Origin: a virus
Reading direction: 5' to 3' (one strand)
Length of the DNA: 64,000 nucleotides
Virus record (IMG/VR): IMGVR_UViG_3300020394_000862
Location: 1-64,000 of that record
The notes under the pieces: model-generated
Told to the model about the DNA's origin: nothing
Database searches by the model: none
The model's input: only the letters and a program-made list of their open reading frames with translations
Program-made: the position numbers and the translations under genes
Shown: positions 32,589 through 49,702 of the stretch, one piece after another
Layout: every line of letters starts with the position of its first letter
Numbering within the stretch: position 1 is the stretch's first letter

Positions 32589-33053
32589 TTAAAAATGAGC
32601 GTCGTCAAGGCCAGCAGCTCGCAAGCGAACAACATGCCCGATCATCCAGTTCATGTTTTCCAAAGATTTATGCAATCCTTGGTACTTGTTTCGCACAAGA
32701 GACCATTCGTTAACTAGCATCGCAACGTTAATTACTGCAGGATCACCGTCGCAGTATTTCTCACAGTCACGGGAACTTAACGAACGCTGGTAATTTTCGA
32801 GGTATTTCTTAAACACTTGCGCACGAACTTTTTTCTGTTCTATATTCAAGTGTTCCAGTATTGCCTCTATCTCTTGGTAATAGGCGTAGTACTTGTCAAC
32901 TACAGTAGCAAGCTGGCCACACTTACGGGATATCGCGCCTTCCAAGGGTAGAAACTTCCTACCCTCTTCATACTCTTTCTCGTAAAACGCAACCGCGTCC
33001 GGAATGCGTGACAAGTCACTACTAACTACATAAAACCAGTTAGTTAGGCTCAT
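32589..33053 (-). CDS. uvsY: Recombination mediator UvsY
   Basis: 154 residues (T4 UvsY 137). Pattern of charged helices matches T4 UvsY: LNIEQKKVRAQVFKKYLENY, then the SSRDCEKYCDGDPAVI block that parallels the T4 SMDRYEKSEMKTVL region, then a C-terminal hydrophobic helix MNWMIGHVVRLRAAGLDDAHF. UvsY loads UvsX onto gp32-coated single-stranded DNA. Position after uvsX in the same unit is as expected. Identification rests on pattern and context more than on strong motifs. Confidence 0.8.
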   Translation of the reverse strand: MSLTNWFYVVSSDLSRIPDAVAFYEKEYEEGRKFLPLEGAISRKCGQLATVVDKYYAYYQEIEAILEHLNIEQKKVRAQVFKKYLENYQRSLSSRDCEKYCDGDPAVINVAMLVNEWSLVRNKYQGLHKSLENMNWMIGHVVRLRAAGLDDAHF

Positions 33054-33378
33054 CCATTCGCTCCACTGCTACTCTAATGGTACGGAATAACATGATGGCC
33101 AACTTCTTAGGGTTAGGGAACCGCTGTCGTAGTCGTATAAACTTGCGGTCTATACCGTACTCAACAAACATACGAACAGTGTATTCGAAGTTCGTAGGTG
33201 TTTTAGCCCACATAGCGGCATTCATGTCAACTAGTAGTGTTTTTTCCAAAGCTTCGAGCTGTGATATCACCGTCGCTTTAGACTCTTTTTGCTTTACGAA
33301 AGCAAGTAATTGACAATACGCTTTTTTGAATTCAGTTGAATCTGAAGGAAACGGACTGTGCATGATTTCTTCTGTCAT
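33040..33378 (-). CDS. Unknown protein between uvsX and uvsY
   Basis: 112 residues from the ATG at 33378 (MTEEIMHSPFPSD), with GAGG six bases upstream; the in-frame start at 33402 has none. Helical, with a C-terminal basic RLRQRFPNPKKLAIMLFRTI segment. It overlaps uvsY by 14 bp. Position suggests a recombination accessory, but no family is recognised. Confidence 0.6.
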   Translation of the reverse strand: MTEEIMHSPFPSDSTEFKKAYCQLLAFVKQKESKATVISQLEALEKTLLVDMNAAMWAKTPTNFEYTVRMFVEYGIDRKFIRLRQRFPNPKKLAIMLFRTIRVAVERMDEPN

Positions 33379-33417
33379 AATAAACCTCTGGTTATAGGGC
33401 ACGGTGTGCCCTATATA

Positions 33418-34515
33418 TTAAGCTTGCTCTTCTTCGTCGGCGCCAAAGTTTTCTTCAGCGTCAGCTAGGCTTGCTTTATCTTCCAGTTCTTGCACTTTAA
33501 GGAACAACTGAAGTAAGTGTTCCATATTGGCAGGCTCTTTCCACTGTTTACGGCGCAGCTTAAATTCTTCGCCAGTTTCCATATCAACAGCAGTGTAATA
33601 AGCACCGGATCGTTTAAGAAGCTGTTGAGCTTCCATAAACTCAAATACACCAGAGTAAGGATCCATGCCAGTCTCATAAGGAATGTAGACCGTAACGTCT
33701 TCGAAAGGCTTAGCGTAGCGGGTTTTGATTACACGACACTTGGATCGTATACCCATAACTTGGCTAACTTTGTTACCTTCGGCGTCTTCTTTAAGTTTCA
33801 TTTTGTTCATTGCAACAATAATGGAACTCGCAAAAACAACCATTTTACCACCGGAAATTTTAGGATCCGGATCAAACATATCTTGCGAATCGTATACGTG
33901 GTTCGTACAAACTACACCAACGTTATACGGTGCAATCAAGTTTGTGGTAGTACGGATAAGCGCGGTTAGTGCTTTCGCTTTACGACCCAAGTCGCCTTTA
34001 AGATCGCCTTTCTGGAACTGATCTTTGTCTGTAGGAGTAAGTAACATACCCAAGCTGTCTACAACAAATAGTACAGGTGGTTGTTCTTTGACGGGTTTGT
34101 CGCCGTGTTCTGCCTTATAACCAGCAACGAACTCGTTGATAATTTTGGCAACTTCGTCGATCATAGCCACGCCGATACGTAACAACTTGTCAGGGTCAGT
34201 ATCCACGCCTACTGCTTTAAGCCACTCTTCATCTAGCGCGTTTTCTGAATCTAACAAGATTACGAATGCGCCCTGGGCTTGTGCATTACGCGCAAGGTTG
34301 CCGGATGCGATATACGACTTACCGGAACCTGACTCACCAGCCAACATGGTAATTTTACCGAACGGGATGCCTTTGTTGAAATTGCCTGAGATCAGATAAT
34401 TCAACATGTAACAGCCGGTTGATACCCACGTTACTGGATCCTGAAACCCTGTATTAATACCGGGTACGGCTTTAGTAATGTCCTTACTGAATTTGGAGAT
34501 ATCGATAGGTTTCAT
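33418..34515 (-). CDS. uvsX: RecA-like recombinase UvsX
   Basis: 365 residues, as T4 UvsX (391). Walker A is AGESGSGKS (59-67), Walker B-like LFVVDSLGML, and the LDSENALDEEW and NHVYDSQDMF-x-P-x-x-x-SGGKM (DNA-binding loop region) segments are characteristic. It promotes strand exchange for recombination-dependent replication and repair with gp32 and UvsY. The C-terminus is acidic. No clear Shine-Dalgarno precedes the ATG, only an A/T-rich leader of about 18 bases, so its translation may be controlled differently from its neighbours. Confidence 0.96.
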   Translation of the reverse strand: MKPIDISKFSKDITKAVPGINTGFQDPVTWVSTGCYMLNYLISGNFNKGIPFGKITMLAGESGSGKSYIASGNLARNAQAQGAFVILLDSENALDEEWLKAVGVDTDPDKLLRIGVAMIDEVAKIINEFVAGYKAEHGDKPVKEQPPVLFVVDSLGMLLTPTDKDQFQKGDLKGDLGRKAKALTALIRTTTNLIAPYNVGVVCTNHVYDSQDMFDPDPKISGGKMVVFASSIIVAMNKMKLKEDAEGNKVSQVMGIRSKCRVIKTRYAKPFEDVTVYIPYETGMDPYSGVFEFMEAQQLLKRSGAYYTAVDMETGEEFKLRRKQWKEPANMEHLLQLFLKVQELEDKASLADAEENFGADEEEQA

Positions 34516-34552
34516 ATTATTGTTTTTATTGTAACCTGTGTGTATGAAAGTC

Positions 34553-34576
34553 GGCAGAGGTTTTTACACCCCTGCC
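34553..34576 (-). terminator. Hairpin between gene 32 and uvsX
   Basis: GGCAGAGG (34553-34560) / CCCCTGCC (34569-34576), eight pairs with one G-U in minus-strand RNA. It lies 8 bp past the gene 32 stop and is followed by GACTTTC, a weak U-run. It may attenuate read-through so that gp32 exceeds UvsX. Confidence 0.4.
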
Positions 34577-34583
34577 CATGATA

Positions 34584-35627
34584 TTAGTTTTGGCGAGAAC
34601 GGATCTTAGCCAGAATATCATTTACGCTAGAGTCAGAACTAGACGGTGCAGCCGGGGCAGCTGGTGCCGGCGTAGCGCTTGCAGCAGGTGCTGGGCGTGA
34701 CTCTTGGCGTGGTTCAGCAGTAGAAGGTTTAAACGGAGGAGCATCGTCTGTTTTAGCTGACTGAGCAGGGGCAGCTGGCGTAGACGGAGCCTGTTTAGTA
34801 CCTTGTTCTGAGTTGTTCGACTCAGTTTTCAATCCATAAGGACGGAAGTGTTCACCCCAACGAGAAGGGTCATACGGTTCGCCACTTACACTTGCTTCAA
34901 ACATTTCTTTAATGATTAACAAGTCCTCGTCAGACGGAACCTTAGGAAGCAATGTATTCAGATCTTTAAGCTCGTAGTTCTGAATTGCATCCATGTGCTC
35001 TTGACTAAGCGCAGACTCGTTACGAGACCAGTTTGACGTGGTGTAATCAGCGTATTGGCCGTTCTTAGTTTTCTTTATAACAAAGTTTGTACCGTTGTTA
35101 TAGTCAGTTGGCGTGTGAAGCATATCAGGGTCAAGTAGTCCCTCGCGCACATTCTTGAATATTTGCGAGTTAATATTGAATTGTCTGATAGGGTTCTCAG
35201 GCGGCTGTTCTTCATTAGTTGGATCTTGTAAAACAAAACCCTGCATAATATAAGAACGTTTCTTCCAGTACTTGCGTGCTAGGCTATCCATATCAGTGTT
35301 AAACCACGATGATACTTCACGACTAACAGGGCAAGATCTGCCGTCATTGTACATTTCAACACAAGGAACCTGTACGATAAAAGGTTTACCCTTGTTAAAG
35401 TCCGGTTGGCCAAGCACCGAAGAAAACTCAAGCTTGATCATTTGCTTTTCACGCCAGAAATAGACGTTGTCGGCATTTGCATCAGGAAGGAATCTTACTT
35501 CAATACGGGAATCGTCAGGAGCATCCCAGTGACGATAAAGTGGGCTTGGTCCACGTGATGAACCTTGGTTGTCTTTTTGAGCGGCAGCACGTTGTAGACG
35601 TGCACGAATTTCATTAATATCCGGCAT
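34584..35627 (-). CDS. 32: Single-stranded DNA-binding protein gp32
   Basis: 347 residues (T4 gp32 301). N-terminal LQRAAAQ basic segment for cooperativity, then an OB-fold core with aromatic residues (VYFWREKQMIKLEF, YWKKRSYIMQGFVLQD, FVIKKT). Instead of the T4 zinc ligands H64-C77-C86-C90 only C89 and C99 are visible, so the zinc site is probably degenerate. A long Pro/Ala/Ser linker (~275-330) leads to a SVNDILAKIRSRQN tail, less acidic than in T4. It coats single-stranded DNA in replication, recombination and repair. Its leader carries five phased repeats that may bind gp32 itself. Confidence 0.92.
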   Translation of the reverse strand: MPDINEIRARLQRAAAQKDNQGSSRGPSPLYRHWDAPDDSRIEVRFLPDANADNVYFWREKQMIKLEFSSVLGQPDFNKGKPFIVQVPCVEMYNDGRSCPVSREVSSWFNTDMDSLARKYWKKRSYIMQGFVLQDPTNEEQPPENPIRQFNINSQIFKNVREGLLDPDMLHTPTDYNNGTNFVIKKTKNGQYADYTTSNWSRNESALSQEHMDAIQNYELKDLNTLLPKVPSDEDLLIIKEMFEASVSGEPYDPSRWGEHFRPYGLKTESNNSEQGTKQAPSTPAAPAQSAKTDDAPPFKPSTAEPRQESRPAPAASATPAPAAPAAPSSSDSSVNDILAKIRSRQN

Positions 35628-35660
35628 TTTACGATACTCTTAATTTATTTTTATTGTTAT

Positions 35661-35725
35661 AATTTACGGCTATCTAATTTACGAAACAAAATTTACGATT
35701 CAAAATTTACGATTCAAAATTTACA
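35661..35725 (-). repeat. Five phased AATTTAC repeats in the gene 32 leader
   Basis: On the plus strand AATTTACG or AATTTACA begins at 35661, 35676, 35690, 35704 and 35718, a spacing of 15, 14, 14 and 14. The mRNA reads (C/U)GUAAAUU repeatedly, A/U-rich and without pairing potential. Two units are longer identical copies (AAAATTTACGATTC). It lies in the ~120-nt leader between the promoter at 35756-35785 and the gp32 start. Confidence 0.9.
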
Positions 35726-35755
35726 TTTTCATTTAGTGCCATAATGAGCAAGTTC

Positions 35756-35785
35756 ATTGTAGCACTGTCTTTATTTAGTTGTCAA
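35756..35785 (-). promoter_or_regulatory. 32: Strong extended -10 promoter of the gene 32 operon
   Basis: TTGACA (35785-35780) and TGC-TACAAT (-10 at 35761-35756) with an 18-bp spacer on the minus strand. A CTAAATA late-type motif (35772-35778) lies inside the spacer, so early and late transcription could use nearly the same start. Confidence 0.8.
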
Positions 35786-35796
35786 GGATAATTTTT

Positions 35797-35824
35797 GTTA
35801 GAAAAGTTTTCACTTTTTTCTAAC
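35797..35824. other. Inverted repeat before the gene 32 promoter
   Basis: GTTAGAAAA (35797-35805) / TTTTCTAAC (35816-35824), nine perfect pairs with a ten-base loop, just upstream of the -35 of gene 32. Neither strand has a following U-run in the right place for a classical terminator, so its role is open. Confidence 0.5.
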
Positions 35825-35840
35825 AGGGAGGTGGATTGAA

Positions 35841-35863
35841 GAAAGGCAGCGTATAGCTGCCTT
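35841..35863 (-). terminator. Intrinsic terminator of the terminase operon
   Basis: AAGGCAGC (35843-35850) / GCTGCCTT (35856-35863), eight pairs with a five-base loop; the minus strand continues TTTCTTC. It lies 4 bp past the stop at 35867. Confidence 0.7.
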
Positions 35864-35866
35864 GTA

Positions 35867-36970
35867 TTACTTTACTTTGTCTGCTAGTTCGCCTTTGGCA
35901 AGTGACACTATTGCTTTACGACGTTTCTCGTCATAACTGTCCCAGACTTCTTCGATTGCTTGTCGTACGGACTTGTAGAACACATCGCTGGATTCTTCCA
36001 TCTCTTTCATTACGAAATCGAACTCGTCGCCTGCGTCTTCAAACATAAACGACTTGGGGAGGATGCCCTTCTTTTCCTTCTTAACTTTCTCGCTAACCAT
36101 AGCAATAATGTTTTCAGGTGTTTTGTATCTACGTATGATGCCAGAGACTTTGCGACTATAAGGTGCTCTATCAGCTACGCCGCCTGTGGCAACTGCGCCC
36201 GCTGTTATAGTTTCCTGCAAGCTTGCAATAATATCCGACACTTCGCCGTCAGTACCTACTTTTAAAAAGTCTTGTATTTGGCCGTTGATATCCTTTGCAG
36301 CTTTAGTCGCAAGGTTGTACTCAACCGGATCCTTTTTGCGGATAAAGTTTCTGTACTGGCCTATCATACGTATGCGCTCAGACGCCTCGTATAACGATTC
36401 AGCTATATCATCGCTGTACTCGCCGCCTACTTCTAAATGCTTAGCGATAGCGCGTGCGCCCATAACATGTGGCCATGGCATCATGTACTTTTTGCCATGT
36501 GACGTTATTTCAATCTCACGTAGCTTAGACATGCGTGATTGGGCATTGTCGTTTACTGCACTAGTATGGCGGTAAGTGATTACTGTGTTTTCGCCAACTT
36601 TTTGATAGCTGGTTTTGGTCTTGCCGTACATGCTACTGAACATTTTAGATTCAGTAATTTCTTGTGCGAAGTCTTTAGGCACGATGCTCTTCCCGAATAC
36701 TTTTAAGTTAAATGACTTTCTGTTTTGGTGGGCAAGTGTTTTAAGGGAGTCAATGATATCTTCTATATCAGTAAGCTGCACCTCAGTACCCTTGTTTAAC
36801 TCCACCATGTCTTCACTAACGTAAACCATAATATTAGGCTTTTCTATAAAGAAACGAACAGCTGAGTCGGCTGTCATTACTTGCTTGCCGTCTTGGTCAA
36901 ATAGTGATATATTGTTGTACTTAGAGTGCAATAGTTTGAACACTTTAAGTGAGATTTCTGATTGTACCAT
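35867..36970 (-). CDS. Unknown protein downstream of the terminase
   Basis: 367 residues, mixed alpha/beta in the N-terminal half (MVQSEISLKVFKLLHSKYNNISLFDQDG), then a long helical region with KKYMMPWPHVMGARAIAKHL. A protein of this size and order follows the large terminase in some T4-like phages, possibly structural, but I know no function. No enzyme motif is seen. Confidence 0.6.
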   Translation of the reverse strand: MVQSEISLKVFKLLHSKYNNISLFDQDGKQVMTADSAVRFFIEKPNIMVYVSEDMVELNKGTEVQLTDIEDIIDSLKTLAHQNRKSFNLKVFGKSIVPKDFAQEITESKMFSSMYGKTKTSYQKVGENTVITYRHTSAVNDNAQSRMSKLREIEITSHGKKYMMPWPHVMGARAIAKHLEVGGEYSDDIAESLYEASERIRMIGQYRNFIRKKDPVEYNLATKAAKDINGQIQDFLKVGTDGEVSDIIASLQETITAGAVATGGVADRAPYSRKVSGIIRRYKTPENIIAMVSEKVKKEKKGILPKSFMFEDAGDEFDFVMKEMEESSDVFYKSVRQAIEEVWDSYDEKRRKAIVSLAKGELADKVK

Positions 36971-36992
36971 AATTTTTGCCGTTTTCCTTTAT

Positions 36993-38528
36993 TTATAAGA
37001 TCCCAAGGGGCATAGGTTCCTCAAACGATTCTTCGTCCATATAGCCCGTGACAGCATCCATGATCTCGTCGTCCCACTTACTTATTACGTCAATAATACG
37101 TACAGCCAGAAGAAGTGACAGAACTAGATCATCGTGGTTTCCGTCTTTGGCTTTGTACGTAGCGCCTGAACTAACGAATGTTTTAAATTCACCGATAAGG
37201 AACTTACTAAACACCTGAAGCGTGTCGCTCTCTATCCACGACTTCATCTTGGCACAGTACTCTAGTTTGCTGCGGTTAGTTAGTGTAAATCCTTTACGCT
37301 TGCCGCCTTGTGCTGAAACAAAAATACCGGGTATGTTTTCTTCGCCCATTGCACGGATTACTGATAAGCCAGCCTCACCTAACGTATTGTTTTCTAAACT
37401 CCAATAAATCTCGTTGGCACCTGCTTCATCAAGTGTTTCACATATGTGCCGCAACATACCGACTTGCTTTTCAATTATAGTACGCTTAGATTGCCACTCA
37501 GCTATTTGTTCCATACTCGGCAACTCAATAACCTGTATAGCAGCGAAGTCGCCGCCAGTACCCATGCTAGGATCCAAGGCAACTACGTAATCCATGCCCT
37601 CGGCCGGTGTGTTAAACCAACGTATTGTGCCTTCTTTATAAAGCGGATCAATATGCTCCCAGTCAAACATGAACTTAGGACTAATAAGAGTTTCGTCAAA
37701 CGATATGAACTGGTTCTCGTGCTCACGTTTGAATCGCTCTTCGCCGATTTTGTTGAATTCTTCATGGTACCAATCCTCGTCGCGATCAGGATGTTCGCGC
37801 CAATCAGCAAAGTATGGTCTAAATCCGTTAATACCGACTGGACGCTCGTTGCCGTTGTCGTCTATTAACTTGTTAGCCTGACGCCAAATTTCAGAGAACT
37901 GGTCTTCGTCGTTGTTCGGTGTAGATGTGATTATACATTTACCACCTGTTGATAACGTCGGCGATAGTGCTGTCCAGAATTCTTTAGCGATACGGGGCTG
38001 TACGAATGCAAATTCATCCATGTATACCAATGATATTGACAAACCACGACCTGAGTTCTCAGTTGTTGCCTGCGCCACGATACGAGAGCCATTGTCAAAT
38101 TCTATGGAGTGCTTGTTGTACGCTACTACGCCGCTTCGCACGTAGTCCGGACAGTTTTCGTAGCCGTATCTTATACGGTGCATGATCTCTTTAGCGCCGT
38201 CGTGTTTGTTAGATACGATCAATATCATACTGTCAGGCACAAACATAGCATACCAAAGAAGATAGGCAGCCGCTATCGTGGACTTACCCATCTGCCTTGA
38301 TACGAGACTTATAGAGCTTCGATAGTTGTGATAGCTATCAATCAACCCGTACTGGAAGTCAAAAGGCTTAAGCTTCATTGACCCTTTAGTAGGGTGCTGT
38401 ATCTGAAAATAGTTTTCAATAAAATGAAGATGTCCGTTATCCGGGTTGCCGCACTTTACAAGCTCACCTAACTGTGCTTTAGTATAGGCCGTTTTAGAGT
38501 GCGGGGTTTTTACTAACGCATCAGACAT
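36993..38528 (-). CDS. 17: Terminase large subunit gp17
   Basis: 511 residues. ATPase: Walker A-like SRQMGKST (77-84), Walker B VYMDEF (D171, E172) and the coupling motif ITSTPNN. Nuclease: LDPSMGTGGDF (first metal Asp), SLENN (glutamate) and NHDDLVLS (last Asp pair). It is the packaging motor and headful nuclease, acting at the portal. It lies last-but-one in the operon that starts with the small subunit, and begins right after the 139-residue gene (one base apart). Confidence 0.96.
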   Translation of the reverse strand: MSDALVKTPHSKTAYTKAQLGELVKCGNPDNGHLHFIENYFQIQHPTKGSMKLKPFDFQYGLIDSYHNYRSSISLVSRQMGKSTIAAAYLLWYAMFVPDSMILIVSNKHDGAKEIMHRIRYGYENCPDYVRSGVVAYNKHSIEFDNGSRIVAQATTENSGRGLSISLVYMDEFAFVQPRIAKEFWTALSPTLSTGGKCIITSTPNNDEDQFSEIWRQANKLIDDNGNERPVGINGFRPYFADWREHPDRDEDWYHEEFNKIGEERFKREHENQFISFDETLISPKFMFDWEHIDPLYKEGTIRWFNTPAEGMDYVVALDPSMGTGGDFAAIQVIELPSMEQIAEWQSKRTIIEKQVGMLRHICETLDEAGANEIYWSLENNTLGEAGLSVIRAMGEENIPGIFVSAQGGKRKGFTLTNRSKLEYCAKMKSWIESDTLQVFSKFLIGEFKTFVSSGATYKAKDGNHDDLVLSLLLAVRIIDVISKWDDEIMDAVTGYMDEESFEEPMPLGIL

Positions 38529-38948
38529 TTAAACCTCGTACTTTTTGGATGTGGTTTTGAAATTAGACTTGCGCATAACAGTCTTAGCGAATAAAGTCCA
38601 CTGCTTCTTGCGGCGGTCAAAGTCAATTACAAACGGACCGTTTAAATCCGTTTCTTTGTCGTGTATTACGCCCTGTTCGCTTTTGCGGATCGTGGAAAAA
38701 TCTGACCCGTAGTCGCGCTGGGCTTTACCAAACATTTTAAAAAGTTCGCCGGTTGTTATTTGCTTTTTGTTGCGCTGGTCGTTTACTCTATCAAGGAAAT
38801 GGCGAGTGAACTCAATATCTAGACCATGCTTCGCATAAAGCTGATCTAGATATTTTTCAAGCTCATCAAGCTCTGACTTAGTGATAGGTCTGTCCGGCGG
38901 CGTGCTGGTAAACTCGTATAGCGGATTAAGAACTTCACTTATTCGCAC
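38529..38948 (-). CDS. Unknown protein in the terminase operon
   Basis: 139 residues. HGLDIEFTRHFLDRVNDQRN, then LNGPFVIDFDRRKKQW, then LFAKTVMRKSNFKTT. The alternating alpha/beta form with conserved F-T-x-H-F-x-x-R is that of a phage conserved family of unknown role; a RelE-like barrel is conceivable, but I would not call it a toxin. It is sandwiched between genes for the two terminase subunits. Confidence 0.65.
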   Translation of the reverse strand: MRISEVLNPLYEFTSTPPDRPITKSELDELEKYLDQLYAKHGLDIEFTRHFLDRVNDQRNKKQITTGELFKMFGKAQRDYGSDFSTIRKSEQGVIHDKETDLNGPFVIDFDRRKKQWTLFAKTVMRKSNFKTTSKKYEV

Positions 38949-49695: not shown

Positions 49696-49702
49696 TATTT
49701 AG
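49696..49702 (-). promoter_or_regulatory. Late-type promoter motif CTAAATA
   Basis: GCTAAATACCGG on the minus strand, 39 bp before the sheath start at 49657. Confidence 0.5.

Follow-up and report, generated by a model that had tools for sequence, protein, structure and literature searches.

It is said in PMC535899 to be unclear by what means gp32 recognises its own mRNA among other single strands, and a 2010 review of T4 (PMC3014915) calls for more work on gp32 autocontrol in diverse relatives. The question is raised by the leader of a gp32-like gene in the 64,000 nt of giant-phage DNA analysed here (the window), which is part of an 82,223-base virus record. The original prediction was that a regular array of AATTTAC repeats in this leader could act as a ruler for gp32 in autogenous repression, taking the place of the pseudoknot of T4. 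Judged from its sequence the leader is real, lineage-restricted and regulatory-looking, and we see about even chances that the predicted late leader of 139 nt is an autogenous translational operator for gp32, a variant of the T4 design.

The gp32 gene and its setting

The gene downstream of the leader is on the minus strand (34584 to 35627, with its ATG start at 35627) and encodes a gp32-like single-stranded DNA-binding protein of 347 amino acids. The protein is matched by the gp32 family profile, Pfam PF08804 (E 1.3e-6, 29.1 bits, cut-off 26.8), and by PHROG 1192 for ssDNA-binding protein (E 3.8e-55). The AlphaFold model has a mean pLDDT of 71.6, and its core matches T4 gp32 1gpc (Foldseek E 4.9e-7; VIA Z 13.7, rmsd 2.8, 199 residues); in the structural alignments the identity to T4 and RB69 gp32 is just 15-22%. 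When PDB sequences were searched by profile there was no match at E 0.01, and the link to solved structures is thus one of fold. The profile matches and the model together indicate that 34584-35627 is a genuine T4-type gp32 gene.

By profile match the next gene after gp32 is for a UvsX-like recombinase (33418-34515), and the gene preceding gp32 (35867-36970) has a virion-structural-protein profile. The order structural protein, gp32, recombinase is also annotated in RaK2, 121Q, XaC1, BF, GAP32, CBB and XbC2. Two hairpins lie on the minus strand between the virion gene and the gp32 promoter (35796-35863); an inverted repeat lies there at 35796-35825, and the hairpin at 35843-35863 is terminator-like on the plus strand in the scan.

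The repeat array

The five copies of AATTTAC that had been reported on the plus strand are indeed present, starting at 35661, 35676, 35690, 35704 and 35718 with spacings of 15, 14, 14 and 14, and they read GUAAAUU on the mRNA. The array (35661-35724, minus strand; seen in the sequence, by TRF and in near-identical records) lies as claimed between the promoter at 35785-35756 and the gp32 ATG at 35627, the mRNA start being a predicted one. In mRNA order the linkers are TTGAATC, TTGAATC, TTGTTTC and AGATAGCC, with ATAACAA behind the final unit. There is no difference between units 1 and 2, and the core is constant in all units while the linkers of units 3-5 vary. TRF gives period 14, 3.5 copies, 94% matches and a score of 84, which is the top of four rows in the window at a score limit of 40. 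Pairs of GTAAATT 13-16 nt apart are found in the gp32 leader alone in the 82-kb record itself and in two same-virus records of 306-311 kb (the three records scanned being G000, G001 and G002).

With regard to chance, when the 123-nt leader was shuffled 20,000 times with dinucleotides preserved, five GTAAATT were never reached, and nine TAAA were reached 51 times. The fairer post-hoc test is for any heptamer present at least 5 times, which occurred in 162 of 5,000 leader shuffles, and the repeat count alone is therefore not overwhelming. The regular phase and the polymorphism in unit number, discussed below, are stronger points than the count. Taken singly, AATTTAC shows no enrichment, the window having 21 copies where 17 are expected. 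The nine UAAA elements in the 123 nt upstream of gp32 are the highest number for any of the 73 genes in the window, which were called mechanically (next 6, mean 1.5). Five of the nine are within GUAAAUU units and the elements extend to the AUG, through a start-proximal A/U-rich stretch (35628-35660, minus strand) that includes UAAAAAUAAAUUAA and has CGUAAA directly before the AUG.

It was also part of the original prediction that the repeats lack pairing potential, but in predicted folding the five-unit linker has a little more pairing than its shuffles (unpaired fraction 0.45, shuffles 0.49, with 242 of 300 shuffles at least as open), and so has the six-unit linker (0.42 against 0.47; 270 of 300). 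The predicted pairs on the strand 3' of the hairpin described below are mostly weak A-U pairs.

The Shine-Dalgarno-like sequence is a weak AAGAG (35641-35637, minus strand), 9 nt before the gp32 AUG, and this brings in an alternative, that the A/U-rich leader is a translation enhancer or ribosome standby site, which recruits ribosomal protein S1 to offset the missing Shine-Dalgarno sequence, with no feedback from gp32. It is in keeping with this that the leader with the weak sequence is the one with the A/U array, as all 49 other distinct leaders among the matches listed have AGGA or GGAG within 20 nt of the start. However, 33 of the 73 genes in the window are also without a 4-nt Shine-Dalgarno core, even with start sites chosen in favour of one, TRF shows no comparable array elsewhere in the window, and an enhancer leaves the 14-nt phase unexplained. 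We consider this alternative unlikely.

GTAAATT arrays with a 7- or 14-nt period are also present in viral contigs elsewhere (L083/L086, L084/L091, L093, L087/L094 and L082). Those with the 14-nt period amount to 13 stretches, 5 in this virus and 8 elsewhere, and no gp32 start was seen in the context of the 8 stretches from other viruses. Rfam gave no matches at gathering score for 9 loci, which included L001, L002 and T4.

Variation in unit number

Six records of the same virus include the leader: the window, L001, L002 (the same as L085), L089, L090 and L092. The record of the window is identical, across the 6,041 bases compared, to IMG/VR contig L001 of 306,500 bases, and the two are for this reason not independent. 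The window, L001 and L092 have five units, and L002, L089 and L090 have six. The gp32 genes of the window/L001 clade differ from those of L002, L090 and L092 at 39, 40 and 41 of 1041 bases (about 4%), and from the partial record L089 at 21 of the 832 gp32 bases covered. In all 15 pairwise comparisons of the six records the leader is identical except for the number of units, the sixth unit being an exact copy, so that there is variation by whole units and no single-base change. With a single difference in 1041 gp32 bases, L090 and L092 nevertheless have six and five units respectively, and the exact length of the array is thus not tightly constrained. L001 and L002 have 364 mismatches in 7,041 bases, none of them falling between the promoter and the ATG; the 81 nt upstream have 2 substitutions and one indel.

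The gain and loss of whole copies leaves room for a leader that is neutral or enhances translation. With regard to the former, the repeat could be a by-product of replication slippage, expanded in a tolerant leader by slipped-strand events and having no function of its own. The identity of units 1 and 2, the exact copy in the sixth, and the presence of five and six units on near-identical backgrounds are all as expected for slippage, and the start of gp32 is also slow-changing between L001 and L002, so that a local recombination block could mimic the invariance of the leader. Against this there are no substitutions in any unit, or in the rest of the leader, across two clades, and in the more diverged units it is the linkers that have changed and not the GUAAAUU core, with variation by whole units only. 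We think slippage as the whole explanation rather unlikely.

The promoter and a hairpin at the predicted late start

The promoter scan gives a sigma-70-like promoter, TTGACA-18-TACAAT (35756-35785, minus strand), which matches at 11 of 12 positions and is the best of 11 promoter-like sites in 33000-38600, bearing out the claim of an excellent promoter; 11 sites is the number expected from shuffles. Within its spacer is TAAATA, a T4-late-like promoter element (35772-35777, minus strand). In T4 late transcription starts 6 nt after TAAATA, and by this rule a late mRNA is predicted to start at 35766, giving the leader of 139 nt. Of the 49 other distinct leaders among the matches listed, 48 also have a TAAATA no more than 140 nt from where gp32 starts.

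TAAATA precedes many coding-strand genes of the window: in addition to 35772-35777 there are 12 intergenic sites, for example at 49696, 43728, 40104, 24906, 15484 and 13864. Thus 13 of the 28 coding-strand copies are fully within the 5% of the DNA that is intergenic, and 4 of 9 on the other strand. Over the whole window neither TATAAATA (3, expected 4.2) nor CTAAATA (15, expected 12.8) is enriched. The intergenic TAAATA is possibly the late promoter of this phage; ATAAATA has been proposed as late promoter for phage CBB (PMC5259590).

The predicted late mRNA would begin with a hairpin, AGUGCUAcAAUGA-acuugc-UCAUUaUGGCACU (35735-35766, minus strand, with the predicted +1 at 35766), which has 12 bp from nucleotide 1, -12.8 kcal/mol and z -5.1. 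For comparison 75 of the 80 listed gp32 loci were kept, the other 5 having too little upstream DNA, and were reduced to 48 distinct leaders, being 46 relatives and the five- and six-unit forms; where there were several TAAATA the copy nearest TTGAC was used. In 42-nt folds the first paired base is at +1 to +3 in 47 of these 48 leaders from the matches listed (median z -2.3), and in 46-nt folds in 45, the exceptions being L019, L020 and L028. The same was found for 25 of 26 further distinct leaders. Several of the hairpins in the leaders that we call group B are weak (z -0.3 to -0.9). At 14 further TAAATA sites on the coding strand of the window the downstream fold always has z above -1, and the 3 that pair first at +1 to +3 do so at just -0.6 to -1.2 kcal/mol.

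The arms of the hairpin covary. The 29 distinct arms make on average 6.86 of 8 pairs with their own downstream sequence against 6.03 (sd 0.13) after exchange of the downstream sequences between arms, the observed value being reached in 0 of 5,000 permutations, although related leaders are not independent in this test. Mean arm pairing peaks at +1, with 5.97 at offsets 8 and 10, and 6.34 at offset 12. RNAalifold on MAFFT alignments did not recover this hairpin, probably because the arms were badly aligned, and was replaced by the permutation anchored at +1.

The 15 jumbo-phage isolates are mixed. Seven fit the +1 hairpin, with a whole-leader fold starting at +1 to +3 of at least one TAAATA (Phosso, Atu_ph07, RaK2, GAP32, CBB, RAS14 and XbC2), three have TAAATA with a fold that does not start there (PA5oct, BF and the Vibrio phage), and five (121Q, SCTP-2, Hallingskeid, XaC1 and Munch) have no TAAATA within 260 nt.

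The hairpin predicted at the late +1, as in nearly all the metagenomic leaders, indicates that the array follows a 5' fold and does not replace one, and the original prediction has to be revised on this point. An H-type pseudoknot in the leader of the window was looked for and rejected, as the following 60 nt contain no stretch of 3 nt or more that could pair with the hairpin loop, ACUUGC.

The dyad of the hairpin includes the -10 of the sigma-70-like promoter, and it could therefore be a DNA operator, as part of a more general alternative in which the function is at the DNA level, with the array, which lies downstream of the promoter, supplying sites that resemble iterons or melt easily, for use in replication or by a transcription factor. 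Direct AT-rich repeats beside a replication gene would suit this. However, an iteron or origin at the array was rejected on the lack of any sign change of GC skew around it in 4-kb bins (a coarse test), and 14 or 15 bp is not a helical period. The letters of the dyad vary widely between metagenomic lineages while the distance from TAAATA is fixed, which fits the end of an RNA better than a DNA operator, and we regard a DNA-level element as improbable.

Leaders of relatives

The next relatives among the matches listed have gp32 that is 44-49% identical, about 47% on the 26 aligned. Intermediate relatives may exist, but a scan with the gp32 C-terminus gave at least 3 loci, of which all those listed are same-virus records, and a scan of genome contigs found no gp32 relative. 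Of the 78 other listed loci, 73 have enough upstream DNA to tell, and the GUAAAUU array is absent from all of these and from all 15 jumbo-phage isolates. The expectation that the repeat would be found in relatives thus holds for records of the same virus, with five or six units, and fails for the next relatives among the matches listed, several of which have another short repeat in that place.

In one sister lineage the repeated word is UAGGCAAC, 13-14 nt apart in the gp32 leader. Two TAGGCAAC 12-28 nt apart were found at 80 loci or more, and 29 of those listed are within 150 nt before a gp32 start. The spacing in these 29 is 13 (10 loci) or 14 (19 loci) in every case, where the pattern allowed 12-28. 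The leaders of group D were chosen for two TAGGCAAC, and it is the third copy, the spacing and the gp32 context that are unselected. In 2 of the 29 there is no TAAATA in the upstream DNA covered. From their sequences the 29 look like one lineage, and in group C the spacings of AGGC are 10-27, and thus 14 nt is not universal. AGGCA is present two or three times in 9 of 15 group C leaders (0.26 per leader in shuffles) and once in 7 of 16 group B leaders.

Several minor observations were made on these leaders. UAGGCA(A/C) words are repeated in sister-lineage leaders, among them L129, L133, L148, L170, L189, L019, L028, L040, L050 and L066, and one sister lineage has the TAGGCAAC pair 13-14 nt apart together with a third copy, which precedes a small hairpin. 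In the 251,693-base record of L189 there are 12 other copies of TAGGCAAC that look to be coding, to judge by their context, although the 3 followed 14-57 nt later by an ATG and an open frame may be part of a leader. By eye, group B leaders (for example L033, L045 and L016) have a second promoter-like site upstream, with its -10 in another dyad.

Group A leaders (L010-L079) have two extra stems between the +1 hairpin and the Shine-Dalgarno sequence (alignment A1, columns 45-65 and 92-102), one with a mostly conserved AUAGG loop and the other with a CCA loop, and these covary, 7 of the 10 predicted pairs having changes on both sides. L062 and L070, binned in group C, align with group A (17 rows in A1), and L022 was left out of alignment A2 (15 of 16).

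The proposed operator

The design that we infer, from late start site through gp32 binding, cooperative filling and repression to the two-protomer register, would consist of a 5'-terminal hairpin and, after it, a long A/U-rich strand in which UAAAU elements are phased and which continues into the ribosome-binding site. Gp32 in excess of single-stranded DNA would fill this strand cooperatively, beginning at the hairpin or at the GUAAAUU cores, with roughly two 7-nt protomers per 14-nt unit, and bound gp32 would open up the weak A-U pairs and mask the AUG. The +1 hairpin may also protect the mRNA from 5'-dependent decay.

The occluded site of T4 gp32 is 7 nt (PMC10484735), and one 14-nt unit would therefore fit two protomers. 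However, with one interval of 15 nt, and AGGC spacings as variable as those of group C, the case for a 2 x 7 register is weak; a two-protomer fit is compatible with this interval, and with gain and loss of whole units, but is not required by them.

A wider generalisation, which we hold to be doubtful, is that gp32-type single-stranded DNA-binding proteins read their own mRNA by a modular ruler, made up of a hairpin at the 5' end and a lineage-specific word about every two protomer lengths (five or six GUAAAUU here, UAGGCAAC in the sister lineage, UUAAA in T4), with gain and loss of whole units tuning the threshold of repression. If this were true, unit number would be an evolvable set-point for the supply of the protein. 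The leader offers a natural series for such work, with five and six units on nearly the same background, a hairpin and array that are separable, and a sister lineage with another word, so that length, register and sequence preference are open to direct test. A hairpin fixed at the predicted late +1 would also give a second, independent handle on the late mRNAs of jumbo phages.

Comparison with known systems

The T4 and RB69 operator consists of two elements, a pseudoknot and, downstream of it, UUAAA/UAAA repeats that cover the ribosome site; according to PMC535899 repression requires both, and gp32 nucleates at the pseudoknot. The present leader, likened to this operator from sequence, is also that of a gp32 gene and also has a 5' fold and an A/U-rich strand with repeated UAAA/UUAAA leading into the ribosome site. 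It differs in having a plain hairpin in place of the pseudoknot, a repeat period of 14 nt against 5 nt in T4, a weak Shine-Dalgarno sequence and a polymorphic number of units. The linker is 107 nt, or 121 nt with six units, whereas the T4 pseudoknot is within about 67 nt of the AUG (PMC3014915). A repeated A/U element in gp32 leaders is thus already known in kind, and the novelty here lies in a period of 14 nt, a number of units that is polymorphic, a plain hairpin at +1 for a pseudoknot, and the length. In open-licence full texts, and in titles and the starts of abstracts, we found no paper describing such an array in a gp32 leader.

The T4 leader has its TAAATA at -156, well upstream of the pseudoknot, and contains UUAAUUAAAUUAAAUUAAAAAGG; it shares the hexamer UAAAUU with the leader of the window. 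UAAAUU is present in 4 of 10 T4-like leaders (T4, JK45, phi1_146055 and TB34). In the last 60 nt there are 5 UAAA in T4 and in JK45, 4 in phi1_146055 and Aeromonas 25, and 3 in TB34, with 2 in VAC13, 1 each in KARL-1, KVP40 and phiM7, and none in S-RIM12. The low counts in the distant leaders (KARL-1, KVP40, S-RIM12 and phiM7) indicate that the UAAA/UAAAUU element is not universal in T4-like phages. In T4, JK45 and phi1_146055 a hairpin is followed by UAAAU/UUAAA elements, and in JK45 the count of 6 nt after TAAATA, made by hand, puts the late start directly before the leader hairpin. For RB49 neither a pseudoknot nor an A+U-rich stretch is reported in the gp32 leader, according to PMC3014915.

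The hairpin from the first nucleotide is also reminiscent of the ompA-type 5' stem-loops that stabilise bacterial mRNAs. To our knowledge ompA-type leaders have no repeat array and are not bound by the product of their own gene. It is very improbable that the A/U-rich single-stranded units are a landing strip for RNase E that sets mRNA processing, as, although the AAAUU of each unit fits the RNase E consensus, cuts within the array would strip the hairpin from the message, which is in any case predicted to start at the hairpin, with no need of processing. The precedent for such a site is at -71 in T4 gene 32, where RNase E cuts the mRNAs just upstream of the pseudoknot (PMC3014915). 5' structures hinder both RppH and RNase E (PMC3997798).

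The jumbo phages of the PA5oct/RaK2/CBB type and their metagenomic relatives have a homologous gp32, with about 47% identity for the metagenomic relatives, and in many a uvsX/recA-like gene follows it. TAAATA with a predicted +1 hairpin is shared by nearly all the metagenomic leaders and by 7 of the 15 isolates. They differ in having no GUAAAUU array, and the metagenomic leaders in having a strong Shine-Dalgarno sequence; in place of the array the metagenomic relatives carry a second hairpin, mostly with the AUAGG loop (group A), or from 0 to 4 AGGCA (groups B, C and D). In PA5oct (L098, the leader before 701) a candidate pseudoknot can be seen by eye, in which the loop CUAACCC of a hairpin AGUUUUGC/GCAAAACU could pair with GGGUUUAG downstream, followed by an A/U-rich stretch and then the AUG.
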